Origin: Prevotella sp.
GTDB taxonomy: Bacteria; Bacteroidota; Bacteroidia; Bacteroidales; Bacteroidaceae
NCBI GenBank assembly: GCA_017469955.1
Contig: JAFUFJ010000006.1
Location: forward strand, 89,363 to 153,362
Direction: 5' to 3'
DNA length: 64,000 bases
Part shown: one piece after another, positions 1 to 29,160 of the stretch
Numbering within the stretch: position 1 is the first letter of the stretch
How the letters are laid out: the number at the start of each line of letters is the position of its first letter
Translations under genes and position numbers: made by a program
The notes under the pieces: generated by a model
Databases searched by the model: none
Seen by the model: the letters and a program-made list of their open reading frames with translations, nothing else
What the model was told of the DNA's origin: nothing

Positions 1-1
1 G

Positions 2-1351
2 GCTGCCCGCAATCGACGGTTCTCGCGCTTAGTGGCCCTTGCTCTCTACGATATGGATATCGATATGCAGGGTGACATGTTGCTCACTCCGGGCCAGCCT
101 AACATCGTACGCGGACCTAACGGATGGGAATGGTGGCTCGTCTACATGGCCAATCAGGGTTTCCGTCGCGACCAGTATATCGATCGCATACACTTTGTCA
201 ACGACCGTTTCACCGTCGATGGCATCACGGGCCACAACACTTCACGCCCGTATGCGCCAGCCAAGCCCCAGTATAGCGGCTCGACACTTTGCGACCTTCC
301 TTTCTCCGACAGCTATCTTCTCGAAGCTACGGCCCGCAAGAAGGGCACCGACGAGCCCATGAAGGTGTGGCGAGTAGAGAAGAATCACGACCTGGTCACG
401 GTCTGGTGCGACAATGTTCTCGTGGCCGACCATTCGGCTTCTCTTCCAAATCTGGAAGAAATCATCCGTGCGGAGGCCGACGGCTACGACATAGAATATT
501 TCTCCTACAACGACGGATGGGATGAATATGGCACGCACTTCAGCGGATGGTCAGGCCTTCATCCCACAGCCGAAGGCCTGCCTTTGAAGGGCGAAGTGCT
601 GAAGGGCGACGCCGCTTCCGACTATGAATTCACAGCCAGCTTCGACAGCCGCGCCGCCTCTTCCGGCCGCTATGGGCTCTATGCTGCCTATGTTGACGCC
701 AAGAACTATGTGAGAACCACCATCGACGCTGCCCGCCAGATGCTCGTCACTGAGCATTGTGTCAAGGGGAAGACCACCGTCGAGGAGGCTCCTCTGGCCT
801 ACACTGCCGTGCATTATCCCGACCTGAAGTATACTGACAGCTTCGAAAAGCAATACCGTTTCGACAGCGACACTTATGTCAGCGACCTGTATCTGCCCCA
901 TCTCGATGCCGACAACGACACCTATGCCCGCTCGTTAGGCCTCTCTGAAGCGGCTCACCGGTCGTATAACGACGACATGGCCGGCCGTTTCCACATCGAC
1001 TATCTTGACGGAGACACATGGCGAAAGCTCGACTACACCATTGCAGAGAGCAGCCATCCGGCCTGGCAGCGCATCACTTTCCCCGCAGTAAGGACGCAAG
1101 CCCTGCGCTTGATCAATGCCGATCCCGAGGAGCACAGCCGTCTTGTCTATCGGGTAAAGACCACAAGGCAGTTTGAACAGATCAACCAGATACGCGTGGA
1201 GAAGCGCGGAGCTGACGTGCGTATCTTCGTGGGCAACCGCGAGATGGCCACCGTCACGATGAAGAAAGCCGTCCCTGCACGCGTAGGACTCTATGCCTCC
1301 GAGGGCGCAGAGGCCACGCTCGTCAGCGACCTTTACTATCCAGTATACTGA
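2..1351 (+). CDS. GH43-like glycoside hydrolase, 5' end outside window
   Basis: The frame is open from base 2 with no stop, so the window cuts the gene and the GTG near base 32 is not a credible start. The first visible residues (GPNGWEWWLVYMANQG, then VDGITGHNTSRPYAP) resemble the end of a five-bladed GH43-type catalytic domain. The rest looks like one or two concanavalin/laminin-G-like beta-sandwich modules, with GRYGLYAAYVDAKNYVRTT in the middle and ARVGLYASEG near the end. No catalytic acid can be checked because the catalytic part is missing. A hairpin with a short T-tract follows the stop. The next gene is convergent. The family call is inference from the visible tail; a GH32-like or other beta-propeller enzyme is possible. 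Confidence 0.5.
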   Translation, partial: AARNRRFSRLVALALYDMDIDMQGDMLLTPGQPNIVRGPNGWEWWLVYMANQGFRRDQYIDRIHFVNDRFTVDGITGHNTSRPYAPAKPQYSGSTLCDLPFSDSYLLEATARKKGTDEPMKVWRVEKNHDLVTVWCDNVLVADHSASLPNLEEIIRAEADGYDIEYFSYNDGWDEYGTHFSGWSGLHPTAEGLPLKGEVLKGDAASDYEFTASFDSRAASSGRYGLYAAYVDAKNYVRTTIDAARQMLVTEHCVKGKTTVEEAPLAYTAVHYPDLKYTDSFEKQYRFDSDTYVSDLYLPHLDADNDTYARSLGLSEAAHRSYNDDMAGRFHIDYLDGDTWRKLDYTIAESSHPAWQRITFPAVRTQALRLINADPEEHSRLVYRVKTTRQFEQINQIRVEKRGADVRIFVGNREMATVTMKKAVPARVGLYASEGAEATLVSDLYYPVY

Positions 1352-1399
1352 TCTCTTGCCGCTTCCTTCCGATCAGCAGCAGGCAAAGTCCCGATCGTC

Positions 1400-1454
1400 A
1401 GGCAGGCTGGCCGGCCGATTCCCTTGTGAGTCAGCCCGCCAGTCTGCCTCTTTT
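1400..1454 (+). terminator. Hairpin terminator after the GH43-like gene
   Basis: AGGCAGGCTGG pairs with CCAGTCTGCCT apart from one mismatch, and CTTTTC follows. It sits 48 nt after the stop codon and before the 107-nt word element. Confidence 0.5.
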
Positions 1455-1503
1455 CAGCCTTGACAGGCAGGATATCTCTACCGCCATCCTTCCCCTTCGT
1501 GCC

Positions 1504-1610
1504 GAGAAAGCTAAGACTTTAGCCCGAGAAGTCATAGTTTTCTTGCCAATAACCCTATCCTTTCTCGGCAACAACTCTATGACTTCTCGGGCTAAAGTCT
1601 TAGCTTTCTC
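1504..1610. repeat. 107-nt five-word dyad element, copy 1
   Basis: Five 19-nt words with 3-nt spacers. Words: GAGAAAGCTAAGACTTTAG, GAGAAGTCATAGTTTTCTT, AATAACCCTATCCTTTCTC, AACAACTCTATGACTTCTC, CTAAAGTCTTAGCTTTCTC. The outer 34 nt on each side are perfect reverse complements around a 39-nt centre, the most symmetric of the eight copies. It fills the gap between two convergent genes. The layout was read directly from the sequence; function is unknown. Confidence 0.9.
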
Positions 1611-1641
1611 AAGAAGCCCCTCCGTTTTTTTCCGGCTTATC

Positions 1642-2163
1642 TCATCTCTGCATGGCCAGCCACCGTTCCACTCCACGGCGTATAGAGGCCAGTCCAAACT
1701 CCTCGGGGCGCAGCTCTTCGGCAGCCATCCACAAGAGTTCGCAGGCATCGTCCATCGGCTTCATGCCCGAAAAGTCGCTGACTGCGCATCTGAAGAACAA
1801 GTCTTGGGTGGGAATTCTGAGCCCGCTGTAGGTATAGACGTTGGGAAGCGAAAAGAGATAGTCGGCCTGTTCAATCCGCAGTCCGGTCTCCTCCTTCACC
1901 TCGCGCCTGACACCTTCCTCGGCCGTCTCTGAGGGATCGGCGAAACCTCCGGGCAGGTCGAGCGTGCCTTTTGCCGGCTCTTTCGCCCGCCGGGCAACGA
2001 GAAGCCGGCCGTCGGCATCAGTGATGAGCGCCACATAGGCCGCACTTGCATTCATGAAAAACTCGAAACCGCACTCTTCGCAGCGCTTGCTCTTCTCGCT
2101 GTTCACCGTGAAACGCGGGCTGCCGCATCGCGGACAATAAAGGAAAACATCTAACCAATGCAT
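1642..2163 (-). CDS. NUDIX hydrolase with N-terminal zinc ribbon
   Basis: Protein of 173 aa. A zinc ribbon (CPRCG, then CEECG, about residues 10-32) precedes a NUDIX fold. The NUDIX box is complete: GGFADPSETAEEGVRREV continuing into KEETGL, matching Gx5Ex7REUxEExGU, which binds the divalent metals needed to cleave a nucleoside diphosphate linked to another group. The arrangement recalls NudC-type NADH pyrophosphatases, but the characteristic NudC motif after the box is not seen, so the substrate is open. The start at MHWLDVF is chosen because a -7 box lies only about 25 nt upstream; the reading frame extends 27 codons further, across that promoter. Confidence 0.85.
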   Translation of the reverse strand: MHWLDVFLYCPRCGSPRFTVNSEKSKRCEECGFEFFMNASAAYVALITDADGRLLVARRAKEPAKGTLDLPGGFADPSETAEEGVRREVKEETGLRIEQADYLFSLPNVYTYSGLRIPTQDLFFRCAVSDFSGMKPMDDACELLWMAAEELRPEEFGLASIRRGVERWLAMQR

Positions 2164-2187
2164 CTCTGCCAAAGTATTTCTCGCTCG

Positions 2188-2195
2188 CAAAGATA
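2188..2195 (-). promoter_or_regulatory. -7 box for the NUDIX gene
   Basis: On the minus strand it reads TATCTTTG, matching TAnnTTTG. Transcription would begin about 18 nt before the MHWLDVF start codon. This decides the start against the longer reading frame. Confidence 0.6.
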
Positions 2196-2277
2196 GGAAT
2201 TTATTTCCTTCCGACGGCCGTTTGCAAGCCACTTTCGACTGCAAAACCTAAAAAAAGCGAAAACTTCACGCGCTTTT

Positions 2278-2308
2278 TTTGTATTCTGGGCGCTAATGAC
2301 TAACTTTG
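2278..2308 (+). promoter_or_regulatory. Promoter of the tandem esterase genes
   Basis: TTTG, a 19-nt spacer, then TAACTTTG: a full Bacteroidota-type promoter. An ATG directly after the -7 box would lie at the transcription start, so the ATG 33 nt further, which opens a clean signal peptide, is preferred. Confidence 0.7.
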
Positions 2309-2342
2309 CATGAACAGAAGAACATCAACACCACTTCAGACC

Positions 2343-3164
2343 ATGAACAAGAAACGATTGCTATTGACGCTTCTCGTCTGCACTGCAGTTCTTTCGGTTG
2401 CAGCCCAGAAGCATTTCCAGCAGAACCTTTATTCGGGCGCTCCCTCGGTGAAAAGCAGCGACAAGCAAGACACCGCCCGTGTGTTTGTATTCCTGCCCGA
2501 CGCACGCATGTCGACCGGAAAAGCCGTGGTGATGCTCCCCGGAGGTGGCTATGAACACCTTGCAATGGGGCATGAAGGCACCGAATGGGCACCCTTCTTC
2601 AACAACCAGGGCATCGCTCTCGTCGTCGTGAAGTACCGGATGCCCCACGGAAACGCCGACGTTCCCGTCAGCGATGCTGAGGAAGCCATCCGCCTTGTCA
2701 GGCAGAACGCCCCGGCATGGCATGTCAATCCCAGCGACGTAGGCATCATGGGATTCTCAGCCGGAGGCCACTTGGCAGCCACCGTCGCCACCCATTCGCG
2801 CGACGCACGTCCCGACTTCCAGATACTTTTCTATCCTGTCATCACCATGGACAAGGGATATACCCACATGGGGTCTCACGACAACTTGCTCGGAAAGAGT
2901 GCCTCTCGCGACGAGGAAGACCGCTATAGCAACGAGCTTCAGGTAGCCGACACGACGCCGGAAGCCTTCATCCTGCTCAGCGACGACGACGATATCGTGC
3001 CACCGGCCAATGGAGTGAACTACTACTTGTCGCTCCTTCGCCACCACGTGCCTGCCGCTCTCTATGTATATCCCAGCGGAGGCCATGGCTACGGCATCAA
3101 CAACTACTTCCGCTATCACTACGAAATGCTCACCGAACTGCGCTCCTGGCTGCGCAGAAAATAA
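2343..3164 (+). CDS. Secreted alpha/beta-hydrolase esterase (paralogue 1)
   Basis: Protein of 273 aa starting with a signal peptide (MNKKRLLLTLLVCTAVLSV, cleavage near AAQ). The fold is an alpha/beta hydrolase of the BD-FAE/acetylesterase type: oxyanion motif PGGGY, nucleophile elbow GFSAGG, an acidic residue in SDDDDIVPP and histidine in GGHGYG. Such enzymes remove acetyl or feruloyl groups from plant polysaccharides such as xylan. The next gene, 32 nt downstream, is a close paralogue and probably co-transcribed. The substrate is inferred from family and from nearby xylan/arabinan enzymes. Confidence 0.8.
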   Translation: MNKKRLLLTLLVCTAVLSVAAQKHFQQNLYSGAPSVKSSDKQDTARVFVFLPDARMSTGKAVVMLPGGGYEHLAMGHEGTEWAPFFNNQGIALVVVKYRMPHGNADVPVSDAEEAIRLVRQNAPAWHVNPSDVGIMGFSAGGHLAATVATHSRDARPDFQILFYPVITMDKGYTHMGSHDNLLGKSASRDEEDRYSNELQVADTTPEAFILLSDDDDIVPPANGVNYYLSLLRHHVPAALYVYPSGGHGYGINNYFRYHYEMLTELRSWLRRK

Positions 3165-3196
3165 AGACTCAAAGGTCGAAAAGAGAGGAAAAAGAC

Positions 3197-4027
3197 ATGA
3201 AGAAAAACATCAGAACGCTCGTCGTAGCCATCGTTTGCCTGACAGCAGTGACAGGCATGCAGGCGCAAACCCGCTTCACACAGGACCTCTGGAAGGGCAA
3301 GCCTGCCGTGAAGAGCACCGACAAGAAAGACACCGCCCGCGTCGACATCTTCCTTCCGCCGGCCGAAAAAGCCACAGGAAGGGCAGTAGTCATCCTGCCG
3401 GGAGGCGGATATACGTGGCTTGCCATGGACAATGAAGGGTATGGATGGACACAGTTCTTCAACAAATTGGGCATCGCAGCCGTCGTCGTGAAGTACCGAA
3501 TGCCCCATGGAAAGCCTACCGTTCCCGTCAGTGATGCTGAGGAAGCCATACGCCTTGTGCGCCGAAACGCAGCCAAATGGCACATCGACGCCCGCCAGGT
3601 AGGCATCATGGGCTCGTCAGCCGGAGGCCATCTGGCCTCGACAGTGGCCACGCAAGCCAAGAGCGATGCACGCCCCGATTTCCAGATACTCTTCTATCCC
3701 GTCATCTCGATGGACCCGCAACTCACCCACATGGGGTCGCACGACAACCTGCTTGGCAAGAAAGTCAAGAAGATAGACGAGGCAAAATACAGCAGCGACG
3801 TGCAGGCTTCACGCCTCACACCGCGTGCCTTCATCACCTTTGCCAGCGACGATTCGCTCGTGAATCCTGAGAATGGCGTCAACTATTACTTGCAGCTCTA
3901 CCGCAACGACGTGCCGGCCACGGTGTGCATCTTTCCCGAAGGCGAGCATGGATACGGCTCGCAGACCTCGTTCCGCTACCACAATCAGCTGCTCATGGAG
4001 ATGGAGTCGTGGCTGCGCAGCTTTTAG
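3197..4027 (+). CDS. Secreted alpha/beta-hydrolase esterase (paralogue 2)
   Basis: Protein of 276 aa with a signal peptide (MKKNIRTLVVAIVCLTAVTG). It aligns with the preceding gene along its whole length: PGGGY, KYRMPHG, VPVSDAEEAIRLVR, the GSSAGG elbow, TFASDDSLVNP for the acid and EGEHGYG for the histidine. The triad is intact, so both copies look active. The pair looks like a tandem duplication that diverged, perhaps to split specificity between ester types. A strong hairpin terminator follows. Confidence 0.8.
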   Translation: MKKNIRTLVVAIVCLTAVTGMQAQTRFTQDLWKGKPAVKSTDKKDTARVDIFLPPAEKATGRAVVILPGGGYTWLAMDNEGYGWTQFFNKLGIAAVVVKYRMPHGKPTVPVSDAEEAIRLVRRNAAKWHIDARQVGIMGSSAGGHLASTVATQAKSDARPDFQILFYPVISMDPQLTHMGSHDNLLGKKVKKIDEAKYSSDVQASRLTPRAFITFASDDSLVNPENGVNYYLQLYRNDVPATVCIFPEGEHGYGSQTSFRYHNQLLMEMESWLRSF

Positions 4028-4070
4028 AAAAGCGGCAAGACTGCCCCGACTGACAACCGTCATGGACACC

Positions 4071-4118
4071 AAGAGAGGCCGCAACCTGTGCCGGCAAGCA
4101 CAGGCTTCGGCCTCTTTT
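4071..4118 (+). terminator. Terminator of the esterase pair
   Basis: Nested hairpin: outer AAGAGAGGCCG with CGGCCTCTT, inner CCTGTGC with GCACAGG, followed by TTCTT. Confidence 0.7.
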
Positions 4119-4189
4119 CTTGGCATAACCCATAGGAAGAAAGCTGTCATCCGGCATCGGCAACCCCCCAAAAGCAACCCCTTCTCCTG

Positions 4190-4252
4190 GCAAAAGATGA
4201 TGTATTGCGGGGTAAAAGATGATGTATTGCCCTCCAAAACATCATCTTTCCC
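4190..4252. repeat. 63-nt three-word dyad array, vocabulary B
   Basis: Three 19-nt words with 3-nt spacers: GCAAAAGATGATGTATTGC, GTAAAAGATGATGTATTGC, CCAAAACATCATCTTTCCC. The 22-nt pitch and 9+1+9 dyad plan match the 107-nt elements, but the word sequences are unrelated. The 380-nt gap between the esterase and the next lipoprotein gene holds a terminator, this array and a promoter. Confidence 0.75.
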
Positions 4253-4370
4253 CCTGAGAAGGCACGGTTTTCCGGCAGGCATCCCTGAGCGAACAGCCTT
4301 AAAAGGATGAAAAACATTACGGGCAAAGAAAAAAAGAGAGGAAGATTTCCGTTAAGTCGAAATTTTGCAT

Positions 4371-4378
4371 TAATTTTG
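4371..4378 (+). promoter_or_regulatory. -7 box for the thioredoxin-like lipoprotein
   Basis: TAATTTTG, 29 nt before the start codon. A TTTG at the usual distance is not obvious. Confidence 0.45.
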
Positions 4379-4407
4379 CATGCACACTAATTGATTGCAG
4401 AAAACAG

Positions 4408-5580
4408 ATGAAAAAGAGAAGCAATATCGTCGGCATCGCCATGGCTTTGCTGGCAGGATGGGGACTGACGGCCTGCACGGGAGAGCGGTTTCAGGTGCAG
4501 GGCACGGTGAGTGATGCTACAGACTCGACGCTCTATCTGGAGCACATGAGCCTGGGTGGCGCAGTAAAAATAGACTCTGTGAAGCTCAAGGACGACGGCC
4601 TTTTCTCCTTCAAGCAGAAGGCTCCCGAGGCTCCAGAGTTCTACCGGCTGCGCATCGGAACGCAGATCGTGAACTTCTCTGTTGACTCTACTGAGACGGT
4701 ATCGGTCAAGGCGTCCTATCCGACCATGGCCTCTCAATACGAGATTGAGGGCTCAGACAACTGCCAGAAGATAAAAGAACTGACCCTGAAGCAAATGCAG
4801 CTGCAGGCAAAGATACAGGATGTTGCGCGCGATCCGAGCCTGGGCATCACGGCAGTGGGCGACAGTGCGGAACGGCTCATTGAGGCTTATAAGGACGAAG
4901 TGAAGCGCGACTACATCTTCAAGGAGCCCATGAAGGCCTATGCCTACTTCGCTCTTTTCCAGACTATCTATACAGGTGGAGGCAGCATGCTGCTCTTCAA
5001 CCCCCGCACCAGTGAGGAAGACATCAAGGTTTTTGCTGCCGTGGCGACGAGTTGGGACACCTATTACCCGGGTGCAGAGCGCGGAGAAAACCTGCACAAC
5101 ATTGCCATCCAGGGATTGAAAGACCAGCGCATCGTGCGCAACCGGCAGAATCAGACCATCGATGCCTCACAGGTGGATGTGACAAACATCATCGACATAG
5201 CCCTGCCCGACAACCATGGCACCCTGAGACGCTTGTCAGACTTGAAGGGAAAGGTGGTGATGCTCGACTTCCATCTGTTTGCTTCCAACACGTCGACACA
5301 ACGCATCATGCAGATGCGCGACCTCTATAACAAGTATCGCGACCGAGGCTTCGAAATCTATCAGGTGGCCTATGACCCCGACGAACACTTCTGGAAAACC
5401 AAGACAGAAGCACTTCCATGGGTCAGTGTGTTTGATGCTGACGGGCTGAACAGCGTCAACTTGCTCCGTTACAACGTACAGTCGATACCCACGTTCTTCC
5501 TCATCGGCAAGGATTGTTCGGTACATAAGCGCGACGCACAGATCAGCGATCTTGACGCAGAAATCGGGTCTTTGCTGTAA
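4408..5580 (+). CDS. DUF4369/thioredoxin-fold lipoprotein lacking the CxxC pair
   Basis: Protein of 390 aa with a lipoprotein signal (ALLAGWGLTAC). Residues about 25-120 match the DUF4369 type of beta domain (FQVQGTVSDATDSTLYLE). Residues about 265-390 form a TlpA/AhpC-like thioredoxin fold: KGKVVMLDFHLF, IYQVAYD and the cis-proline stretch SIPTFFLI. Where the family has WCxxC this protein has FASNTST, and the only cysteines are the lipid anchor and two isolated ones. It therefore cannot act as a disulfide reductase by the usual route; a binding or structural role is more likely. It has its own promoter and terminator. Confidence 0.8.
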   Translation: MKKRSNIVGIAMALLAGWGLTACTGERFQVQGTVSDATDSTLYLEHMSLGGAVKIDSVKLKDDGLFSFKQKAPEAPEFYRLRIGTQIVNFSVDSTETVSVKASYPTMASQYEIEGSDNCQKIKELTLKQMQLQAKIQDVARDPSLGITAVGDSAERLIEAYKDEVKRDYIFKEPMKAYAYFALFQTIYTGGGSMLLFNPRTSEEDIKVFAAVATSWDTYYPGAERGENLHNIAIQGLKDQRIVRNRQNQTIDASQVDVTNIIDIALPDNHGTLRRLSDLKGKVVMLDFHLFASNTSTQRIMQMRDLYNKYRDRGFEIYQVAYDPDEHFWKTKTEALPWVSVFDADGLNSVNLLRYNVQSIPTFFLIGKDCSVHKRDAQISDLDAEIGSLL

Positions 5581-5587
5581 TTAATAG

Positions 5588-5638
5588 CGCCACATCCTGC
5601 CTTCAATGCAACTGCTGATGGCAGGATGTGGCGTTTTT
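5588..5638 (+). terminator. Strong terminator after the thioredoxin-like gene
   Basis: Perfect 14-bp stem CGCCACATCCTGCC / GGCAGGATGTGGCG with an 18-nt loop, followed by TTTTT. Confidence 0.9.
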
Positions 5639-5753
5639 GTCGGTTTGAACCACGACAATCAAACTTTTGTACAATTATGTCAGAAACAGCGGTTTGGCAG
5701 AATTGAGCAAAAACTTGACTGAAAAAAAACAACATACATTATCAAGAATGAGC

Positions 5754-5761
5754 TAACTTTG
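5754..5761 (+). promoter_or_regulatory. -7 box opening the first polysaccharide locus
   Basis: TAACTTTG, 28 nt before the first gene of the locus. It is the likely entry point for transcription through the SusC/SusD genes. Confidence 0.6.
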
Positions 5762-5789
5762 CAATCGGAAACAGGAAAACTTTTGCGTT

Positions 5790-8261
5790 ATGAAAACAAG
5801 GAATACGATGAAAAGAATACATATTATCTTCATAACCATGCTTGGCATGCTTTGCGCTTTACCCTTGCAAGCAGCCGTTGTCGAGACGCTTTCTTCAGGA
5901 AACGCACGTTTGCAAGTGTCGGAAGCCAAGGAGGCAGGTCAGTATCAAGTGACGTTTCTGGTCTATGACAACGAGTTTAATGCATCGGAAGAATACAATC
6001 CGACGCTGGTCATCGACTGCTATATGAAGACCTTCTATGCCAACTATACCGACTATAAGAAGGAAAACGGAAAGCTGACAATGACAGCACGCTTCACGGC
6101 AACACCTTCGACGGTGGTGTTTGTCGTGACCGATATTTATGAAGCCAAGGGTGACGGCAGCTTTGCACTTGACAGAGACGTACGCGTGGAAAGCCTTGGC
6201 GACAATCCTTACAAGAATGGTTTCTACACTTCGTTCGGCTTGCAGTTCAGCGATACGAACGAGTTGTTAGACTATGACTACTTTATTCCGGGAGTCTGGT
6301 ACAAGCCACAGTTCACCATTGGCGGCAACATTCCTTCAGGCATACCGACCAAAGACGATACCAATTTCTTCTATCGCGACGACAGAACTCCCCTGCCTGT
6401 GGTAATGATGCGCGACAAGACCACAGGACTTGCCGTCTTCATTGTCGACCAGGATTCGCCATGCCGCACCGTGTTGGCCGATGCAAGTCTTGAAGAACAG
6501 AATGAAAACTACCAGTATGGCGGAGTAGGAGTGGTGAAGAGAAAGAAGACGGAAGGCTTCTGTGCCGTGGCCACCTATCCTGGAAGCGACAACCGCCAAG
6601 GAGGAATCGGCGAGAGACGCCATCCGTTTGTCGAAGGCTTTGACCGACACCACTACAAGGTGTTCTTCAACTTTGCGAAGACCGACGACTATGGTGTATC
6701 CTTTGAACAGGCATGGGACACGGCCTTCAACCTGTACAATCCCGAAATCAGATATGAGGATCAAACACATGCCTACAAAGCGCTCATTGAGACAGTAGAC
6801 TACTATTACCTCTCCCAAGACGGCGATTCACGACAGTCAGTATCGACCAAACAGCCGGGCTTTCCTTGGGGAGTCAACCTGAAAAACTTCTCACTCAATG
6901 CCACGACTTTCGAACTTGGTTTCGTGGGATGCCAGCCAAATGCAGGCTATGCATTGCTGCGTTACGGGCTGGATAATGACAATGAAAGCTATGCAAGCCA
7001 TGGAAAGAAGGTCATAGATTTTTGGGCTCGCTCAGGTCTTTCGTCACTCGGACTGCCCAGAAGTCGTTACTATAATCAGTCAGGAATGTGGGACATGAAC
7101 GGAACAACCACCATCCGGCAGGCCGCGACAGGCATGAACGGTGTGTTGAATGCCTACTGCTACTACCTGAAAAAGACGGGCACAAAGCAGGTGCAATGGC
7201 TGACGGCCTGTGAGAAATTCGGCCAATGGCTTGTCAAAAACCAGCAGAAAGACGGCAGCTTCTACATGGAGTATGACTATAATCGCATTACCAACGGAGC
7301 GCATCCCATACAGAAATACAACAAGTATCTGACGATTTGCGCCGTGCGTTATTTAGTGGAACTCTATCTGACCACGATGAATGAAGAGTATCTTGAGGCT
7401 GCCCGAAAGGCTGCAGACTGGAGTCTCAGTCACACACATAAGAGCTGGCTCTATGTGGCCAGTGTCATTGACAACCCGCAAACCATTGACAGCGAGTCGG
7501 GCATACAGGCTCTTCAAGGCTTTCTTTCAATGTACGACCTGACGAAAGAGGCAAAATGGCTGGAGGCTGCAGAGCAGGCTGCTACCTATACAGAGACGTG
7601 GGCCTACATGCATGAGGTGCCGGTTGAAGACGACCAGACGGGCGAAACAGACTGGCCTCGCGACCGAAGCATCGTGGGACAGCATATCATCACCGTGGCA
7701 CAACCGGCTTGTGACCTCGGATTTGCGTGGTGTTCGTTCGCGTTTTACAGGATGTATCTCTATACGGGCAAGGAGCGTTATCTGAAGATGGCACGCATTT
7801 CGGCTCACAACACCAAGCAGTCTATGAACCTTCATCAGGCTCTTTATCCGGGACGACAGGAAGGCTTGCAGCAGGAAGCATTCACCATTCGCACGGCCAA
7901 TCACTCTACACGACGGCAAAACTCGGTGATGGAAGCACTGACATGGAACTTCGCTGCCCACCTTGACCCAATGATTCGCTTCCTTGATGCCTTTGGTACC
8001 CCGGACATCGAGGCCATCGAGGAGATGGACAAGAACGACGTCCTTCGCATGAATGAAGAATACTCCATCCTGCAAGCAGCTGACTATGGTCAGGACATAT
8101 CAGACATCAGAGAGGTGTCTGCATTGAGAAAAGATGGCGGGCAGAAGGTCTATTTAGAGGGATCATTGTTGCACGTAGTCAGGCAGAATGCACAGGGAAA
8201 ACAGGAACACAGTGTATACACCTTGGCCGGAGCGTTGGTGAAACGCACAGTGGAAGATTAG
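5790..8261 (+). CDS. Secreted alpha/alpha-toroid glycoside hydrolase-like protein (paralogue 1)
   Basis: Protein of 823 aa with a signal peptide (HIIFITMLGMLCALPLQA). Residues about 30-330 look like a beta-sandwich domain. Residues about 340-760 carry the repeated helical pattern of a six-hairpin toroid (KVIDFWARSG, FGQWLVKNQQKDGSFYMEY, VIDNPQTIDSESGIQALQG). The tail (HSVYTLAGALVKR) resembles a type IX secretion sorting domain. A paralogue lies later in the same locus, which argues for two related enzymes acting on the same glycan. I cannot assign a GH family; GH154-, GH105- or GH127-like toroid enzymes are candidates. ATG codons 1 and 7 are both possible starts. Confidence 0.6.
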   Translation: MKTRNTMKRIHIIFITMLGMLCALPLQAAVVETLSSGNARLQVSEAKEAGQYQVTFLVYDNEFNASEEYNPTLVIDCYMKTFYANYTDYKKENGKLTMTARFTATPSTVVFVVTDIYEAKGDGSFALDRDVRVESLGDNPYKNGFYTSFGLQFSDTNELLDYDYFIPGVWYKPQFTIGGNIPSGIPTKDDTNFFYRDDRTPLPVVMMRDKTTGLAVFIVDQDSPCRTVLADASLEEQNENYQYGGVGVVKRKKTEGFCAVATYPGSDNRQGGIGERRHPFVEGFDRHHYKVFFNFAKTDDYGVSFEQAWDTAFNLYNPEIRYEDQTHAYKALIETVDYYYLSQDGDSRQSVSTKQPGFPWGVNLKNFSLNATTFELGFVGCQPNAGYALLRYGLDNDNESYASHGKKVIDFWARSGLSSLGLPRSRYYNQSGMWDMNGTTTIRQAATGMNGVLNAYCYYLKKTGTKQVQWLTACEKFGQWLVKNQQKDGSFYMEYDYNRITNGAHPIQKYNKYLTICAVRYLVELYLTTMNEEYLEAARKAADWSLSHTHKSWLYVASVIDNPQTIDSESGIQALQGFLSMYDLTKEAKWLEAAEQAATYTETWAYMHEVPVEDDQTGETDWPRDRSIVGQHIITVAQPACDLGFAWCSFAFYRMYLYTGKERYLKMARISAHNTKQSMNLHQALYPGRQEGLQQEAFTIRTANHSTRRQNSVMEALTWNFAAHLDPMIRFLDAFGTPDIEAIEEMDKNDVLRMNEEYSILQAADYGQDISDIREVSALRKDGGQKVYLEGSLLHVVRQNAQGKQEHSVYTLAGALVKRTVED

Positions 8262-8307
8262 AAATAAGAAGCAGTTAAACAATTAAAAACCTAAAAACAT
8301 TACAACT

Positions 8308-9120
8308 ATGAAGAAAATTTTTACTTTAGTATCAGTGCTGTTCGTGGCAGCAAGTGCTTTTGCACAGATTCCAGTAACTGGCGAAGGTGATGGCCTTCTT
8401 GGTGAATATTGGTATGGAAGTCAGGATTTTGGCAATCCGATTCCGGCCATCTATCAAGACAGTGGCGACTTTGCCAACAACCCACATCTGACACAAGGCG
8501 GAACTCACGAGTTCGACCGCGTTGACCCTCAGATTCTCTTTGACTGGGGTTCTGGCAATCCTTTCAACGACCATCAGGATGGAACCGATTGTGGTTGTGG
8601 CACGGCTCAGCACTGTTTTAGCGTGAAGTGGACAGGCTGGCTGCTGGCTCCCGTAACTGGTGAGATGATCTTCGACCTCTGTCAATGTGATGATGCCTTT
8701 ACGCTCGCCATCTATGATGTGGACGATATGGAGGATCCTATCTTCTTCTACGATGACTATTACTTCACAGGAAGCCATGCAGGTTGGAACTGGGACAAGG
8801 ACTTCTGGACATTCCCCGTAGATCTTGAAGAAGGACACTACTATTATATTGAGATTAAATACTATGACGGTTCTTGGGGCGCTCACATTGGTTTACGCTG
8901 GTATAATGAGGATTCTACAGAGCCCGAATACATACCACAGGCACAGCTTTATTCGAAAAATCCACTGGCTGACGGCGTTAAGAACGTAGTAGTATCTGCT
9001 GCATCGAATGGTGTATACAACTTGCAGGGTGTGAAGGTAGGTGCAAGTACCAAAGAACTTCCTTCCGGAATGTATATCGTCAACAAAGACGGTAAGCAGC
9101 AAAAAGTCGTTGTGAAATAA
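8308..9120 (+). CDS. Secreted PA14-domain protein with sorting tail
   Basis: Protein of 270 aa with a signal peptide (KKIFTLVSVLFVAASAFA). Most of the body is a PA14-like beta-barrel (GLLGEYWYGS, VKWTGWLLAPVTGEMIF, DDAFTLAIYD), a module that often binds sugars. A cysteine-rich insert (DCGCGTAQHC plus CQC) is unusual and could form disulfides or bind a metal. The end (GVYNLQGVKVG, LPSGMYIVNKDG) looks like a type IX secretion sorting domain, suggesting surface attachment. It lies 46 nt after the toroid enzyme and directly before SusC, so it is probably a surface glycan-binding partner. Confidence 0.7.
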   Translation: MKKIFTLVSVLFVAASAFAQIPVTGEGDGLLGEYWYGSQDFGNPIPAIYQDSGDFANNPHLTQGGTHEFDRVDPQILFDWGSGNPFNDHQDGTDCGCGTAQHCFSVKWTGWLLAPVTGEMIFDLCQCDDAFTLAIYDVDDMEDPIFFYDDYYFTGSHAGWNWDKDFWTFPVDLEEGHYYYIEIKYYDGSWGAHIGLRWYNEDSTEPEYIPQAQLYSKNPLADGVKNVVVSAASNGVYNLQGVKVGASTKELPSGMYIVNKDGKQQKVVVK

Positions 9121-9139
9121 TTGCTTTTTCAGTTTTTTA

Positions 9140-9178
9140 GGTGCCTGCATCGCAAAGGTGTTTGCGGTGTAGGGCACC
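9140..9178 (+). terminator. Hairpin between PA14 gene and susC
   Basis: GGTGCC pairs with GGCACC and an inner CGCAAA pairs with TTTGCG. A T-rich stretch follows. It may act as a partial terminator or as an RNA-processing/stability hairpin setting SusC levels. Confidence 0.5.
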
Positions 9179-9211
9179 ATTCTTTATTTACTAACTCTTA
9201 AACCTTTCATA

Positions 9212-12200
9212 ATGAAACACCGAATATCAGATTTGCTAAACGGACTGAGGCTGCTCGTTGCAGGTAGTTTTCTACTGCTGTCAACAGCTTTACAGGCTCA
9301 GAACTATACGGTATCAGGCAAAGTAGTTGATGCAAGCGGAGAACCAATGATTGGTGTGAATGTGGTGGTGGTAGAGAAGGGAGTGAAAAACGGGACTGTT
9401 ACCGATATTAACGGAAACTACAGTCTTTCGGTCTCGAAGCTCTCAGGTACTATCACTTTCTCGTATGTGGGGTATGACTCGCAGACAATCTCGATAGGTA
9501 GCCGTAATCGTATTGACGTTACACTGACAGAAGATGCGCAAGCGCTCAGCGATGTAGTGGTGGTTGGTTACGCCACACAGAGAAAAGCTACGGTGGCAGC
9601 CGCAGTAAGTTCCATCAATTCGGATGACCTTGTGCGCACATCTTCAACGACAACAGCAGGAGCACTGGTAGGAAAGATGTCGGGTATCACGGCCCGACAG
9701 AACTCAGGTGTGCCGGGTTCTGCAGCAAATATCCAGATTAGAAACATGGGCACACCGCTCTTTGTCATCGACGGAATCATGAAAGATGCGGATGCTTTCA
9801 ACTCGCTTGACATCAATGACATTGAAAATATCTCTGTGTTGAAAGACGGTGCTGCGGCTATTTATGGTGTGAAGGCAGCCAATGGCGTGGTGCTTGTCAC
9901 AACGAAAAAGGGTCGCCGCAACGAGAAAACCCACGTAGACATCAATACATACATGGGATGGCAGCAGTGGACAAAGTATCCAAAACTGCTGAACGCCTAT
10001 GAATATATGCGTGGAATCTATGCCCGCGCCATCAACGACGGAACGCTTACGGGCGATGAAAATATCGCAAATGCGCGTGAAGAACTTGAGAAATGGCGTG
10101 CAGGCTATTACAATCCCGAGACGGGAGAAGACTATCGTGGCTATGACTGGTATGATAATTTTGTAGGCAACGCTGCTCCTCAGTATTATGTGAATGCCAG
10201 TGTTAGTGGAGGTTCGGAAAAATCAGACTATTATATCTCCCTTAGTCATGTAGATCAGGATGCCGTTTTTAAGGAATATACCTATAACCGCACCAATCTT
10301 CAAGCTAACCTTAATGTCAATCTGACGGACCGATTTAAAGTAGGACTGCAAGTATTGGGAAAGATCGCAAAGAACAAAAATCCAGGGTTACCAGGCGATG
10401 ACGACTACTATCAGATGCGTAATTCTGTGCTTTTCCTTGTTCCTACCCAGCGTCCGTACGCCAATGATAATCCTAACTACCTGAACTTCATCACGCCAAC
10501 CCATGACTCTGCCCATAATATGGCTGCCTATACAATAGACAATGCCGGATTATTCAAGCAGACAGTTCGCACGATGCAGACTACCTTCAACTTGGAGTAT
10601 GACACACCTCTGCCAGGACTCAAAGCCAAAGGGATGTTCTCCTATTATTATTATGACACGGATGTATATGATAATGAAAAGTCGTGGAGCGAATATACCT
10701 ACAACAGAGAGACCGACAGCTATAATGTGGCTTACACAAAGGCAGACACTTATCGTGTAAGATCCCGCAACAACATGGAGGAAATCACAGGCCAGGGAAC
10801 CCTGAACTATGACTATGTCTTTGCAAAAGACCACCATGTAACGGCGGTTGCCGGTTTCGAGTTTTACAAGCAAGACACGGGAACTCTGCGTGTGATGCAG
10901 AATCCAGTTGAGAATCCTTTCGTACAGATCATCAACACATCGGAGAACAATAGCGTAGGCAATACGTTGCGCAATATCACGACAGCCAGTTGGATCTTCC
11001 GTGCAGGCTATGCCTATAAGGACAAGTATATTGTTGATTTTGCCGGTCGCGAGGATGCTTCGTGGCGTTTCAAGAAAGGCAATCAATGGGGCTTCTTCCC
11101 CAGTATTTCCGGAGCTTGGCGTGTGTCGGAAGAAGGATTTTACAAGAATCTGGGCATTGACAGATATGTATCAAACCTGAAACTTCGAGCATCTTATGGT
11201 GAGATGGGCGACGACATGGCCGTGAACTATGTGGGGACTTATCCTGACTTTGCCTATATGGCAGGCTACACCTTCGGTCGTAGTGGGTCGATAATCTCAA
11301 CCAACCCGCTCAATAATGGCAACAGCAGCTATGTAACAGGCAGTTCCTATGATGGTATTCCCGAGACAGGATTGACTTGGATGAAGGTGAAGATGACGAA
11401 CTTTGGCGTCGATCTCGGTTTCTTTGACAATCGTTTGCGAGCCGAATTTGACGTGTTCAAACGTAAGCGTACTGGTATTCCCGCCCGCCCGACAGACGTT
11501 CTTTATCCTACGGAAGCTGGCTATTCGGCATTGCTTAAGAATCTTAATAGCGATCAAATATCAGGATATGATTTCAGTTTGAAATGGAGTGACAAGATTT
11601 CCGACTTCAAGTATTTTGCAGGAATCAACTTTACCTTTGCCCGTGAGAAGAGACTTAACAACTATGGAGAGCTTTTCTATAATGCATGGGATCAATATAA
11701 GTGGGGCAGAACTAACCGCTGGTCGAACGTTCAGTCAGAGAATGATGCCCTGTGGATGTATGAGGTCATCGGCATATTTGAATCGCAAGAGCAGATAGAC
11801 AACTGGCCTATTCGCCAAACAGCCAACAACAACCAGGACTTGTTGCCTGGCGATGTCATTTATCGAGACATCAATGGCGACGGTGTTATCAACACCTACG
11901 ACCGCAGACCGCTTGGTTATGCGTCGACGCATTACGACTGGGCTTCCGGTAATGCCAACAAACAGCCGTTGGCTTCTTTGGGCATTAACCTTGGATTTGA
12001 GTGGAAGGGTATTGACTTTGCAGCCGACTTTGCCGGCGGATTCCGCAATACTTGGGTGCCAGACTGGAATGTTAAATGGGGTATTGGCGATGACTATAAC
12101 GGCTATTCTTATGCTGTTAATGACGCTTGGCACCATGAAGATATCTTCGATCCTACTTCACCTTGGGTGAAAGGTACATTCCCTGCCGTGCGTTCAAGCA

Positions 12201-12466
12201 ACCCGTCTACAGGAGCATGGAACAACTTCTATACGAAAGACGTCAACTATATGCGCTTGCGCAACCTGACTTTAGGTTATACATTGCCAAAGACGCTGAC
12301 AACATCTATTGGCATTCAAAAAGTGCGAGTATACTTCGAAGGAACCAATTTGCTGTGTTGGGATTCGCTCAGCGACTATGGATTTGATCCTGAGACTTCA
12401 AGTGTGACGGGCTTCGACTATCCCCAACATCGTGTCTATGTGGTTGGACTTAATGTGTCGTTCTAA
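9212..12466 (+). CDS. SusC/RagA-type TonB-dependent outer membrane transporter
   Basis: Protein of 1084 aa. A signal peptide (LLVAGSFLLLSTALQAQ) precedes the CarboxypepD-like domain (YTVSGKVVDASGEPMIGVN, about residues 32-115). The plug (SDVVVVGYATQRKATV, LVGKMSGITARQNSGVPG, VLKDGAAAIYGVKAANGV) and a 22-strand-type barrel follow, ending in the aromatic VYVVGLNVSF. It imports oligosaccharides across the outer membrane with energy from TonB. The SusD partner starts 11 nt after its stop. Confidence 0.95.
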   Translation: MKHRISDLLNGLRLLVAGSFLLLSTALQAQNYTVSGKVVDASGEPMIGVNVVVVEKGVKNGTVTDINGNYSLSVSKLSGTITFSYVGYDSQTISIGSRNRIDVTLTEDAQALSDVVVVGYATQRKATVAAAVSSINSDDLVRTSSTTTAGALVGKMSGITARQNSGVPGSAANIQIRNMGTPLFVIDGIMKDADAFNSLDINDIENISVLKDGAAAIYGVKAANGVVLVTTKKGRRNEKTHVDINTYMGWQQWTKYPKLLNAYEYMRGIYARAINDGTLTGDENIANAREELEKWRAGYYNPETGEDYRGYDWYDNFVGNAAPQYYVNASVSGGSEKSDYYISLSHVDQDAVFKEYTYNRTNLQANLNVNLTDRFKVGLQVLGKIAKNKNPGLPGDDDYYQMRNSVLFLVPTQRPYANDNPNYLNFITPTHDSAHNMAAYTIDNAGLFKQTVRTMQTTFNLEYDTPLPGLKAKGMFSYYYYDTDVYDNEKSWSEYTYNRETDSYNVAYTKADTYRVRSRNNMEEITGQGTLNYDYVFAKDHHVTAVAGFEFYKQDTGTLRVMQNPVENPFVQIINTSENNSVGNTLRNITTASWIFRAGYAYKDKYIVDFAGREDASWRFKKGNQWGFFPSISGAWRVSEEGFYKNLGIDRYVSNLKLRASYGEMGDDMAVNYVGTYPDFAYMAGYTFGRSGSIISTNPLNNGNSSYVTGSSYDGIPETGLTWMKVKMTNFGVDLGFFDNRLRAEFDVFKRKRTGIPARPTDVLYPTEAGYSALLKNLNSDQISGYDFSLKWSDKISDFKYFAGINFTFAREKRLNNYGELFYNAWDQYKWGRTNRWSNVQSENDALWMYEVIGIFESQEQIDNWPIRQTANNNQDLLPGDVIYRDINGDGVINTYDRRPLGYASTHYDWASGNANKQPLASLGINLGFEWKGIDFAADFAGGFRNTWVPDWNVKWGIGDDYNGYSYAVNDAWHHEDIFDPTSPWVKGTFPAVRSSNPSTGAWNNFYTKDVNYMRLRNLTLGYTLPKTLTTSIGIQKVRVYFEGTNLLCWDSLSDYGFDPETSSVTGFDYPQHRVYVVGLNVSF

Positions 12467-12477
12467 AATTTGAAATT

Positions 12478-14391
12478 ATGATTACAAAGAAAATATACAG
12501 TGTAATTTGCGTTGTCTGCTTGAGTCTCGGTATGGTTTCTTGTTCTGATTGGCTTGAACAAGAAAACAAGAACTCAATGACCGAGGAGCAAACTTACAGC
12601 AGTGAGACGGGTATTCAGAGCATACTCTCCAATCTTTATGCTCGTTTGACCTGCTGGCAGGATTTCAATCAAGACAGCGAGTCTTACGATATGTGCCGAT
12701 GGGATGAGGCTTTGAACAACAGCCAGTATTGGTCGTTTGCCACTAATCCTGGCACAAACTACCGGGTTCTTTATGATTATGGCTTCATACGCGAACTTAA
12801 TATCCACTTGCGCAATCTTGAAACCATTTCAAAAGGCTCGATCAACGAAGACAATCGTCGGTATTATGTTGCCGAAGCTCGTTGGCTTCGCGCCTATACA
12901 TATTTCAAGATGGTAGAGTCTTTGGGTGGTGTTCCTCTTGTGACAGACGTTACAGAATACACCGAAGACCCGACAAAACTTGCAGTGCCCCGTGACAAAG
13001 AGTCTGCAGTCTATGACTTTATCATCAGCGAGATGGATGCCATCAAGAGCGAGATGGGTAACTCTACAGTGAGAACTCGTGCGACAAAGGCCGCGGCTCT
13101 TGCTTTGAAGTGTCGTGCAGCTCTGTATGCAGGAACGTTGGCATACAATCACGACAAGAGCGAGTATCTGAATCTGAATCTGCCTTCTGGGGCAACAGGC
13201 ATTGACAAAAGTCTGGCACAAGACTATCTGCAGGCATGCCTGAGTGCTGCCCGTGAGATAGAACAGCTCGGAAGTTATGAGCTTTATAAGAAGAATTCCA
13301 ACCTTTCTGATAACTATGCCGACCTCTTTGTCAGTGCATACAGCAGCAACCCTGAGTGGATTTTCTGCAAGGCTTATGATGGAGTGAATGTTTCAAACTA
13401 TTTCACTGCCCGTGCCATTCCGCGTAGCGTCTCAGCTTCTGATCTGAACAAGACCACTTGCCAGATCAATCCAGTGCTCAACCTTGTCAACTGCTATGAG
13501 CGCTTGTCAACCAAATCAGTTGAGGACATTGACGCCTATGTGGGCGAGGAACAGCTGGAAGACATGACCATTACGTCTTCTTCTATGCAGTATAACCTGT
13601 ATGACAATCCTGAAGATATCTTTGCCGACCGCGATCCTCGTCTTGCAGGAACCATTCTTACGCCAGGGTCCAAGTTCCGTGGTCAGGCTCTTGACTTGCA
13701 GGCAGGCCTTGCAGTTTCCACAGCTACAGGCTACGACTTCAAGAGTGTTACGAAAAAGACAGAGCTGGCCAATGCCAATACTTACGAAGGACAGAAGATG
13801 ACAGGAGCCGACGGTCCGATGCGTGAAGACCAGTCGAATGTGTATATATCGCACACGGGCTTCCTGCTTCGCAAGTATGTTGACCCGACGACAGGTTCTG
13901 AACTCAATGGTGAGAGCAGTGTCTCCTATGTGGTGTTCCGTCTGGGCGAGGTGCTGCTCAATGCTGCCGAAGCTGCATTCTACCTTGGTGACAAGGAAAC
14001 AGCCCTGAGCTATATCAACCAGGTTCGTGAGCGTGCCGGTGGTGCAGACTTCAAACTCACCGCTTCAGAACTCACACTTGACCGCATCATGAACGAGCGT
14101 CGTGTAGAATTGGCCTTTGAAGACCACCGTTGGATTGACATGAAACGTTGGCGCATTGCTGACGAATATTGGAAAGACGACATCAATTCGCCGACAGCTT
14201 CGGTCTATGTCCTCTGGCCTTATAAGATCTATAATCCCGGCGGAGCTGATGACGGAAAGTGGATATTCCGCAAGATGCGTGCCATGCACCGTGTAAATGA
14301 TGGCACTATTGCTTTCGATCGTTCGATGTATTATTCGGCATACCCACAGACAGAGGGTAATCCTAATACGGAGAAGAACCCCAATCAGTAA
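12478..14391 (+). CDS. SusD/RagB-type surface glycan-binding lipoprotein
   Basis: Protein of 637 aa. Lipoprotein signal with lipobox LGMVSC, then the SusD N-terminal helical region (SDWLEQENKNSMTEEQTYSS, TPR-like helices near WLRAYTYFKMVESLGGVPLV) and the C-terminal signature (LGEVLLNAAEAAFYLGD, IMNERRVELAFEDHRWIDMKRW). It forms the lid over the adjacent SusC barrel and captures the glycan. The C-terminal extension after the RagB motif is somewhat long. Confidence 0.95.
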   Translation: MITKKIYSVICVVCLSLGMVSCSDWLEQENKNSMTEEQTYSSETGIQSILSNLYARLTCWQDFNQDSESYDMCRWDEALNNSQYWSFATNPGTNYRVLYDYGFIRELNIHLRNLETISKGSINEDNRRYYVAEARWLRAYTYFKMVESLGGVPLVTDVTEYTEDPTKLAVPRDKESAVYDFIISEMDAIKSEMGNSTVRTRATKAAALALKCRAALYAGTLAYNHDKSEYLNLNLPSGATGIDKSLAQDYLQACLSAAREIEQLGSYELYKKNSNLSDNYADLFVSAYSSNPEWIFCKAYDGVNVSNYFTARAIPRSVSASDLNKTTCQINPVLNLVNCYERLSTKSVEDIDAYVGEEQLEDMTITSSSMQYNLYDNPEDIFADRDPRLAGTILTPGSKFRGQALDLQAGLAVSTATGYDFKSVTKKTELANANTYEGQKMTGADGPMREDQSNVYISHTGFLLRKYVDPTTGSELNGESSVSYVVFRLGEVLLNAAEAAFYLGDKETALSYINQVRERAGGADFKLTASELTLDRIMNERRVELAFEDHRWIDMKRWRIADEYWKDDINSPTASVYVLWPYKIYNPGGADDGKWIFRKMRAMHRVNDGTIAFDRSMYYSAYPQTEGNPNTEKNPNQ

Positions 14392-14428
14392 TTAATAATT
14401 AATAGTTGACAACTGAAAATTGATAATT

Positions 14429-15202
14429 ATGATTACCAGACATTTCTATAAACTGATGATTGCGGTGTGCGCAATCTTTGGCTTGGTCAGCTGCCAAGAC
14501 GAATATGACAACTACGATGCTCCGTCTTATATGTTCAGCGGACAGCTCTTCGACGAGGAGGGTGACCCGTTTCCGTTTGATGGAGCTAAGAATCTTCTCA
14601 TATTCTTCCAGAGTGGCTATGGCAAGAAAGACACTGGCATGGGTATGGCGGTAAACGAAGAAGGAAAGTTCAGCCAGCTGCTTTTCAATGCAGACTACAA
14701 GCTTACCTTGCGCAACCAAACCTATCCTTTCGAAGTGTTGGAGTTTCCTCGGAAGACCAATGGTCAGCAGGGTTACGACTCAATAGCCTATTACATTGAC
14801 AAGAACGTTACGGCCAACTTCACCGTTCGCCCGTTCTATAAGATCAAAAGCCTTACGGCTGAGGTCGACGGAAAGAACGTCAAGTGCACCTTCACGGTCA
14901 AGAAGATTGTCGAGTCTGCTCCGTCCATTAAGCGTTTCTACGTTTATCTCGGAACGTCCAACCTCGTCAACTCCAATAACAAGTGCACCAAGTTCACCAC
15001 CAACAAGGTGACTTTTGACGGCGAGCAGGAGTTTTCGACAACGATACCTCTGTCATACTATCGCAACAAGAACTATGGCATGGTCAATAATTTCCGCACC
15101 TATGCATTCTATCGAGTTGCATTAATGCTTGACGGATACAACGATTTCTATATCTTCTCGCCCATTCAGAAGATTGAAGGCCTGAACGACTTAGAAGAAT
15201 AA
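14429..15202 (+). CDS. DUF3823-like lipoprotein at the SusE position
   Basis: Protein of 257 aa from the ATG opening MITRHFYKLM; a TTG three codons upstream is in frame but less likely. The lipobox is FGLVSC. The mature start (DEYDNYDAPSYMFSGQLFDE) matches DUF3823 proteins that follow SusD in many loci, and the rest looks like two beta-sandwich domains. It is probably a surface glycan-binding protein helping the SusCD complex. A 10-bp hairpin follows the stop. Confidence 0.7.
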   Translation: MITRHFYKLMIAVCAIFGLVSCQDEYDNYDAPSYMFSGQLFDEEGDPFPFDGAKNLLIFFQSGYGKKDTGMGMAVNEEGKFSQLLFNADYKLTLRNQTYPFEVLEFPRKTNGQQGYDSIAYYIDKNVTANFTVRPFYKIKSLTAEVDGKNVKCTFTVKKIVESAPSIKRFYVYLGTSNLVNSNNKCTKFTTNKVTFDGEQEFSTTIPLSYYRNKNYGMVNNFRTYAFYRVALMLDGYNDFYIFSPIQKIEGLNDLEE

Positions 15203-15210
15203 TCATGTTG

Positions 15211-15246
15211 ATGGTGGCCGTGACCTGTGTGTTCCGGCCACCATTT
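15211..15246 (+). terminator. Hairpin after the SusCD/DUF3823 genes
   Basis: Perfect 10-bp stem ATGGTGGCCG / CGGCCACCAT with a 14-nt loop and TTCCTT behind it. It may end most transcripts here and lower expression of the downstream enzyme genes. Confidence 0.65.
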
Positions 15247-15267
15247 CCTTAATTGAAATAAAGAGAT

Positions 15268-17490: not shown

Positions 17491-17493
17491 CAA

Positions 17494-18543: not shown

Positions 18544-18563
18544 AATCCTAAAAAACAAATAAT

Positions 18564-19664: not shown

Positions 19665-19727
19665 GAAGCACCCGTCTGTCCCCTTGATCGGATGATGTCC
19701 TGACCTGCCTGTCGGCCCGTCGTGCCC

Positions 19728-19834: not shown

Positions 19835-19887
19835 GGCGAGATGGGAATGCCGTCTTTCAGACAACACTTGTCGTTAATGCCTGCACT

Positions 19888-23880: not shown

Positions 23881-23972
23881 GCACCGCATACGGCTGCCGT
23901 GCGGGCTTCATTCCTCACCCCTCAGCCACAGCCGGCGGTTCTTTGCGCCCCGAATCGCCCGCCGTTCCCGCG

Positions 23973-24035: not shown

Positions 24036-24083
24036 CCCAAGAAAGGGCAGCTTTCTCGCAGCGAGCGGTCAGGACTGTACACG

Positions 24084-29153: not shown

Positions 29154-29160
29154 GGCGGGT

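Follow-up and report, generated by a model that had tools for sequence, protein, structure and literature searches.

Intergenic arrays with a 22-bp pitch lie in phase with a kilobase-long AA/TT comb in a Prevotella genome

In a 64,000-nt stretch of DNA from Prevotella sp. (hereafter the window; its genome is designated G000, and the assembly is 75.6% complete), we found eight arrays of five words on a fixed 22-bp lattice. Arrays of the same design recur through the genome and lie in phase with a comb of AA/TT dinucleotides that has a period near 11 bp and keeps its register over kilobases. On balance, we favour the view that such species-specific 22-bp arrays fix the rotational setting of the DNA for kilobases, and that the flanking codons, and even amino acids, are fitted to it.

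An earlier note on the window had described these elements as five 19-nt words joined by 3-nt spacers. All eight copies indeed parsed without gaps into a 107-bp layout of 19+3+19+3+19+3+19+3+19 (Table 1), which is common to the 103 elements of G000 described below. Their grammar scores were 18.5-22.5, compared with a maximum of 17.0 in 20 shuffles of the whole window; the weakest element (29047, 18.5) was not separable by grammar score alone from a 22-bp periodic stretch of other words at 4169-4275 (18.5), which lies in the gap after a pair of paralogues. These paralogues, neighbouring ORFs at 2310-3164 and 3197-4027 with stretches at 70-82% nucleotide identity, probably represent a tandem gene duplication. 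Two further 22-bp periodic rows were seen at 34739-34795 and 57737-57785. A 389-nt inverted duplication (29026-29414 and 37536-37924, 86% identity) includes an array and the region beside it, and a promoter-like 88-bp unit, present in 2.1 copies at 100% identity, lies upstream of a sufB-like gene (46330-46516), with diverged relatives near 29227 and 52009. The nearest named relatives of the SufS-like protein of the window were rumen or omasum Prevotella MAGs at ~75% identity, its own record perhaps being excluded. An Rfam search of the window returned one tRNA and no match at the arrays.

Table 1. Arrays and comb in the window. The strand of each array is the polarity fitted by EM; offsets refer to the phase of the flanking comb.
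Feature	Position (nt)	Strand	Context	Flanking comb offset (bp)
Five-word 22-bp array	1504..1610	+	between convergent genes	0.31
Five-word 22-bp array	19728..19834	-		-0.23
Five-word 22-bp array	29047..29153	-		-1.73 (largest of the eight)
Five-word 22-bp array	34868..34974	+		0.27
Five-word 22-bp array	37797..37903	-	between divergent genes	0.11
Five-word 22-bp array	46008..46114	+	most degenerate of the eight	0.01
Five-word 22-bp array	51746..51852	-	upstream of a class V aminotransferase gene (SufS-like)	-0.26
Five-word 22-bp array	57592..57698	+	between convergent genes	0.10
AA/TT comb, period ~11.03 bp	1..64000	.	coding and non-coding window DNA	

A profile built from the eight window arrays gave at least 150 matches in G000, counting both strands. 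In 627,567 bases (~0.63 Mb) of this genome, 103 distinct elements scoring at least 70 were defined, all with the same layout. Since these elements had been picked with a 22-pitch matrix, the pitch was tested in two further ways. When the word matrix was chained at pitches of 18 to 27, 88 arrays were found at 22 and none at each of the nine others. In a word-free self-match scan of 389 kb, 64 arrays were found at lag 22 and 52 at lag 44, whereas the comparison lags, chosen to exclude multiples of 3 as well as 11, 21, 23, 33 and 44, averaged 0.33 arrays and never exceeded 3. The 22-nt periodicity, for which the earlier note had proposed a check against background, was thus confirmed both with and without reference to the words.

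The arrays occur at about one per 10 kb (44 in 453 kb of contiguous stretches), and their spacing is random, with a mean of 9.9 kb and a CV of 0.99. Based on longest-ORF gene calls, most of the 103 elements fall into gaps between tandem (40), convergent (29) or divergent (21) genes, the remainder being located at a stretch edge (3) or within ORFs that are mostly short (10). The contiguous part offers 62 tandem, 34 convergent and 33 divergent gaps of 107 bp or more, and relative to tandem genes the arrays point in the same direction in 18 cases and in the opposite one in 22, that is, without polarity. Array positions therefore follow intergenic space, and on this ground a regulon or terminator role was rejected. 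A register among inter-array distances was likewise discarded: among ten trial periods, the 18 distances below 6 kb reached R=0.75 at 22.06 bp, and at 11.0-11.05 bp only R 0.13-0.31, which was not counted as evidence.

Within the words, the centre base is A or T in 502 of 515 cases, as the earlier note had claimed for the window copies, and the centre triplet is nearly always TAA, TAT, TTA or ATA. Each half-site, read inward, consists of a triplet, AA and a block, and the eight commonest AA+4 blocks cover 920 of the 1,030 half-sites, so the small set of blocks proposed earlier holds for the whole collection, as does the recurrence of the same half-sites in different words. The description of half-sites as shuffled stood in part: each slot takes a few discrete states, yet the slots have their own preferences, the outermost half-sites being nearly constant, L2 and R4 mostly carrying a GTC block and the others being variable, and the element is polar, as the EM fit found it to be directional. 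Pairing between mirrored words was not borne out. Mirrored columns are Watson-Crick paired in 0.687 of cases (0.696 expected), the outer spacers are reverse-complementary in 31% (expectation, 30%), and nearly every coupling found links adjacent bases, that is, block states. In sum, the interpretation offered in the earlier note was partly supported.

These symmetry data bear on the idea that the arrays act at the RNA or cruciform level, as an RNA hairpin, a bidirectional terminator or a REP/BIME-like palindrome. Seven of the eight window copies folded better than all of their 200 shuffles, the design is mirror-symmetric at the level of classes, and the mirrored half-site pair R1-L5 matches above expectation (0.29 vs 0.16). 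The folding advantage arises because the consensus is mirror-like, whereas mirrored columns lack overall co-variation and the spacers are complementary at chance level. Two other mirrored pairs match below expectation (R2-L4, 0.07 vs 0.17; L3-R3, 0 vs 0.08); word 3 was core-palindromic in none of the 103 elements, where 21% was expected before and 8% after orienting them; the RNA fold of the array at 46008 was no better than its shuffles; and arrays also occur between divergent genes. A hairpin or palindrome is therefore very improbable, and what the element carries is a code, written in block states on a fixed lattice. REP/BIME elements and their kin are interspersed intergenic mosaics of mirror-like design, from which the arrays differ by their fixed 22-bp lattice and by mirrored bases without co-variation. 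To a family of miniature mobile, MITE-like elements, which would be interspersed, of fixed length, intergenic and species-specific as the arrays are, we give equally little credence: no exact 4-9 bp flanking duplication was found in the 103 elements and no excess of 2-3 bp ones, near-identical copies are absent (pair identity averages 0.756 and reaches 0.944 at most), and variation proceeds by block states. A CRISPR array, with near-identical repeats and unique spacers next to cas genes, was also rejected, as the array words vary in blocks and the spacers are 3 nt long.

Related arrays were found in other genomes of the genus, with different words at the same 22-bp pitch and usually one favoured word number: four in G051 and mostly in G088, six in G132 and about five in G180, where the scan extends into degenerate flanking words. 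The first profile matched at least 42 of 150 genus genomes at E<=0.01, and thirty arrays of this kind aligned without gaps; a second profile matched at least 117 of 299 (67 of the 131 good genomes) at E<=1e-4, the own genome being included in both. Across the order, the second profile matched at least 7 of 295 genomes including the own one, with ten matches in G562 of the same family and one in each of five others. The word-free lag-22 scan gave at least one match in 39 of 48 sampled genus genomes, several with words unrelated to AAA..TTT, though a single lag-22 match per 20 kb may be chance or simple repeats. Because many genomes were sampled by a single 20-kb stretch, some sited at known arrays, these survey fractions are rough. 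Lag-22 arrays numbered 10 in the 307 kb covered of named rumen Prevotella and 11 in the 360 kb of other Bacteroidaceae MAGs, with comparison-lag means of 1.23 and 0.87 and with lags 14 or 21 equalling or exceeding lag 22; mixed Bacteroidota and other MAGs contained 4 in 655 kb, and E. coli K-12 none in 200 kb. Clear 22-bp arrays of unrelated words were seen in named Bacteroidaceae/Prevotellaceae MAGs (L145 at 20730, L160 at 16389, L168 at 11816 and L173 at 4261). In L223 of genome G286, a 17-unit scan match at 22-bp pitch (72-445) joins two word types end to end, and two distinct word types occur within one genome in L351 and L350 (genomes G144 and G158). A scan of Suf-locus relatives by the AAA/TTT grammar found no array except weak matches, and sharing of array positions with G180 or G088 was not significant (22 and 15 orthologue pairs). 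Geometry is thus kept between species and words are not.

The lattice continues outside the arrays. AA recurred in its exact slot in the successive virtual words beyond the element with z of 19.6, 28.0, 21.7, 14.0, 10.8 and 8.6, and the AA/TT slots run past the element ends in register, through genes, and then drift slowly, because the true period is slightly greater than 11. With arrays masked, AA/TT autocorrelation over 443 kb of G000 had the same period, 11.025 bp, whatever the range, with amplitudes of 0.0219 (30-150 bp), 0.0193, 0.0166 and 0.0125 (800-1500 bp) by rising range, and of 0.0077, 0.0042, 0.0025 and 0.0016 (6-9 kb, z 32) beyond. In the window, masked in the same way, the amplitudes were 0.0208 (30-150 bp), 0.0177, 0.0148 and 0.0109 (800-1500 bp). 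The comb power per 2 kb of the window was 2 to 24 (null 1), typically 10-18, with its minimum of 2 at ~14000-16000, possibly a younger gene. Local comb power reached p<0.001 over 79% and 80% of the stretches of contigs C6 and C11, respectively. Near 1 and without an array was the power at ~258-277 kb of C6, where an island (~260-277 kb; L063 416-17357) carries a type III restriction-modification pair and KAP NTPase, Schlafen-like, relaxase-like and primase-like genes; since this comb-free stretch encodes type III restriction-modification, relaxase-like and primase-like proteins, recently acquired DNA seems to be free of the comb. A second comb-free stretch of C6 lies near 112-118 kb.

A clear kilobase comb was present in 14 of 48 sampled genomes, a similarly rough fraction, 47 of them of the genus (G000, G264, G300, G016, G149, G180, G006, G304, G088, G130, G096, G134, G216 and G012); the line between comb and no comb, the periods and the score cut-offs were all chosen on these data. 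The other sampled genomes had a weak comb or none, some of them with arrays (G281, G262, G177, G303 and G288). In G180 and G088 the period was ~10.985 bp beyond 150 bp and the comb was coherent over kilobases too; among species it varied from 11.025 to ~10.88 bp. The comb of G000 was about ten times as strong at short range as that of E. coli K-12 (200 kb), where the amplitude was 0.0018 at 30-150 bp; in rumen Prevotella loci it was 0.0015, and neither set exceeded 0.0006 at longer range. A Synechocystis plasmid had no comb, a plasmid being a poor control.

In its AA/TT composition and its spacing near 11 bp, the comb resembles the known bacterial periodicity, which is commonly tied to negative supercoiling or packing and is partly written in codon choice, according to the parts consulted of PMC3431218, PMC3372288, PMC4132750 and PMC7537859. 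A-tract periodicity is described as short-ranged, in segments of ~100 bp, in a statement quoted in PMC4132750, whereas the comb of G000 is coherent to 6-9 kb. A supplementary legend of PMC7537859 gives an extent of at least 1 kb for E. coli by another measure; by the measure used here, the comb of G000 is many times stronger and longer than that of E. coli K-12. It is also phase-locked to intergenic arrays, whereas the parts consulted of the same four papers mention no landmark.

How the comb is written was then read from base composition over the helical phase, which was drawn only from DNA 150-1600 bp away (an earlier local-phase fold had included the site itself). At 63,510 fourfold-degenerate third positions, A+T fell from 65.5% at phase 0 to 26.0% at phase 6; the swing was from 53% to 40% at codon position 1, from 65.5% to 57% at position 2 and from 68% to 45% in intergenic DNA. 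GC, CC, GG and CG peaked about half a turn from AA/TT, and over the turn AA varied between 0.117 and 0.043 and GC between 0.038 and 0.097, in opposite phase as in a nucleosome-like code. The nucleosome rotational code and the periodic An/Tn clusters of C. elegans have AA/TT in phase and GC half a turn away; the comb of G000 differs in being bacterial, in its period of 11.0 rather than ~10 bp, and in being kilobase-coherent and tied to arrays. Permuting synonymous codons within genes cost the 400-800 bp amplitude about four fifths of its value (0.0174 before, 0.0032-0.0033 after), and permuting all codons left 0-0.0003; at 30-150 bp, with arrays unmasked, 0.0236 fell to ~0.0076 and 0.0043-0.0047, respectively. 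As synonymous permutation removes most of the amplitude and full permutation nearly all of it, the comb is mostly codon choice and partly amino-acid order. A protein-helix origin was rejected by these permutations.

The arrays are in phase with this comb. For 44 arrays of G000, the phase lock with the flanking comb was R=0.96, compared with a mean of 0.13 and a maximum of 0.40 in 500 random-position sets. It was found as well in G180 (R=0.87, n=31), in G088 (R=0.90, n=10) and in six more genomes with sets of 1-5 arrays (R 0.46-1.00), was weak in G014 (R=0.42, n=12), and was absent from seven comb-free genomes with arrays (R=0.13, n=10). Lag-22 arrays of any word, taken from further genomes whose comb was strong or weak, gave R=0.66 (n=50, p 3e-10). 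The proposal in the earlier note that a 22-bp pitch puts all words on one DNA face was upheld, and the register even reaches kilobases.

In G000, comb coherence also extended farther across arrays than elsewhere. At 4 kb it was 0.48 [0.24-0.72] across an array (n=40), compared with 0.03 in array-free DNA and 0.08 across other intergenic gaps (n=73), and at 5 kb it was 0.42 [0.10-0.70], -0.04 and -0.08, respectively; coherence at 1 kb was alike across arrays (0.76) and across other gaps (0.74). G180 showed an array effect at 2 kb (0.64 vs 0.31) and 3 kb (0.46 vs 0.22), no difference at 4 kb and a lower value at 5 kb; G088, with at most 10 arrays (n 7-9 at 2-4 kb), had no anchor effect, its coherence at these distances being below that of array-free DNA. 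In C6 the comb kept its amplitude as far as 5-8 kb from arrays, and a 53-kb stretch without full arrays had a comb of normal strength to 1.5 kb, which indicates that the arrays do not create the comb; in G000 they seem to set its phase. The comb runs in phase across them, its phase being continuous, and they are therefore no borders. The phase error grew like a random walk, with an sd of ~0.9 bp at 0.5 kb and ~2.2 bp at 2 kb, and at 2 kb the phase shifts to the left and right of arrays showed a negative correlation (r -0.42, p 0.017).

The long-range coherence across arrays of G000, absent across other gaps, weighs against the proposal that they are operator arrays of a global regulator in an independently periodic chromosome, in phase merely since binding and bending prefer the same face. 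The words do resemble pseudo-palindromic dimer sites, several species have arrays without a comb, and the comb is also found far from full arrays; their positions, however, track intergenic space, convergent gaps included, without polarity to genes, and we consider this explanation unlikely. Plasmid iterons and multi-site operators similarly have sites of ~19 bp at about a two-turn pitch; the arrays differ in lying about one per 10 kb of chromosome, in their pseudo-palindromic, block-variable words and in a register that continues outside. Iterons proper, which are repeated directly at a replication origin accompanied by a Rep gene, seem improbable, as the same dispersal speaks against them.

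From these sequence patterns we infer an agent and a mechanism, tentatively and with slightly less than even confidence: the arrays may be phase anchors of a chromosome-wide helical register, perhaps pinning the tips of supercoiled loops. A sequence-specific protein, its words changing by species, would occupy neighbouring words along a single DNA face and curve the 107-bp array DNA; the complex would pin the tip of a negatively supercoiled (plectonemic) loop and so hold both arms in a fixed rotational setting. Selection or mutational bias would then favour AA/TT at inward-facing minor grooves and GC at positions half a turn off, as happens on nucleosomes. According to White, Cozzarelli and Bauer, reportedly, the surface repeat of plectonemic DNA equals N/Lk; if so, and if a relaxed repeat of 10.5 bp is assumed, a period of 11.025 bp corresponds to a sigma of -0.048, which is an ordinary bacterial value. 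We favour loop tips on three grounds: the array does not interrupt the comb phase, the comb, like plectonemes, is widespread, and the sigma it gives is ordinary. A normal comb in 53 kb without full arrays is what one would predict if loops arise throughout and the arrays do no more than position them. The symmetric outward drift predicted by the loop-tip model was not seen around arrays.

The main rival is a protein lattice: a nucleoid protein that coats or wraps DNA would start from the arrays and extend outward as a regular filament (11-bp turn, 22-bp repeat), the comb being the footprint of the filament on sequence evolution. The strict 22-bp geometry retained as words change would fit it, as would the random-walk growth of the phase error and the 22-bp AA-minus-TT signal, which reaches ~500 bp from arrays. 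This signal is kilobase-coherent and clearer genome-wide in G088, and weak genome-wide in G180; against a lattice, it is weak in G000 past the array surroundings, and the comb is of steady amplitude to 5-8 kb from arrays in C6 and normal in the 53 kb without full arrays. We therefore regard a spreading filament as doubtful.

With either loop tips or a filament, a protein would be expected. The HU, HU-HIG and Lrp/AsnC families were present in 24 of 24 genomes, with a comb or without, so that no protein among these families discriminates. Adjacency to Lrp genes was rejected as a lead: an array lay within 600 bp of 7 of the 20 Lrp genes examined (54 listed), where a rough, uncalculated expectation was 3 to 5. 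The word dialects suggest a fast-evolving candidate DNA-binding protein. Sites such as matS and parS are likewise short and scattered, and a sequence-specific protein reads them to organise the chromosome; the arrays differ in being multi-word, in having species dialects and in standing in phase with a helical comb, and their protein is a candidate proposed from sequence.

We know of no sequence landmark for testing the bacterial 11-bp periodicity, whose role is debated, and a full-text literature search, which covered few subscription papers or bioRxiv preprints, returned no description of the arrays or of comb anchors. The arrays are discrete, deletable elements tied to this periodicity, and if they fix the comb phase they would constitute an unsuspected means of keeping bacterial DNA in a fixed twist. 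If our view is right, a bacterial chromosome would have nucleosome-like rotational positioning over kilobases, its DNA being locked in phase, either supercoiled or as a filament, and codon and amino-acid choice would be constrained in a way that gene-level models ignore. The comb period would record long-term superhelical density, so that long-term supercoiling could be read from sequence, and under the supercoiling reading the differing comb periods would mean that these species differ in long-term superhelical density.
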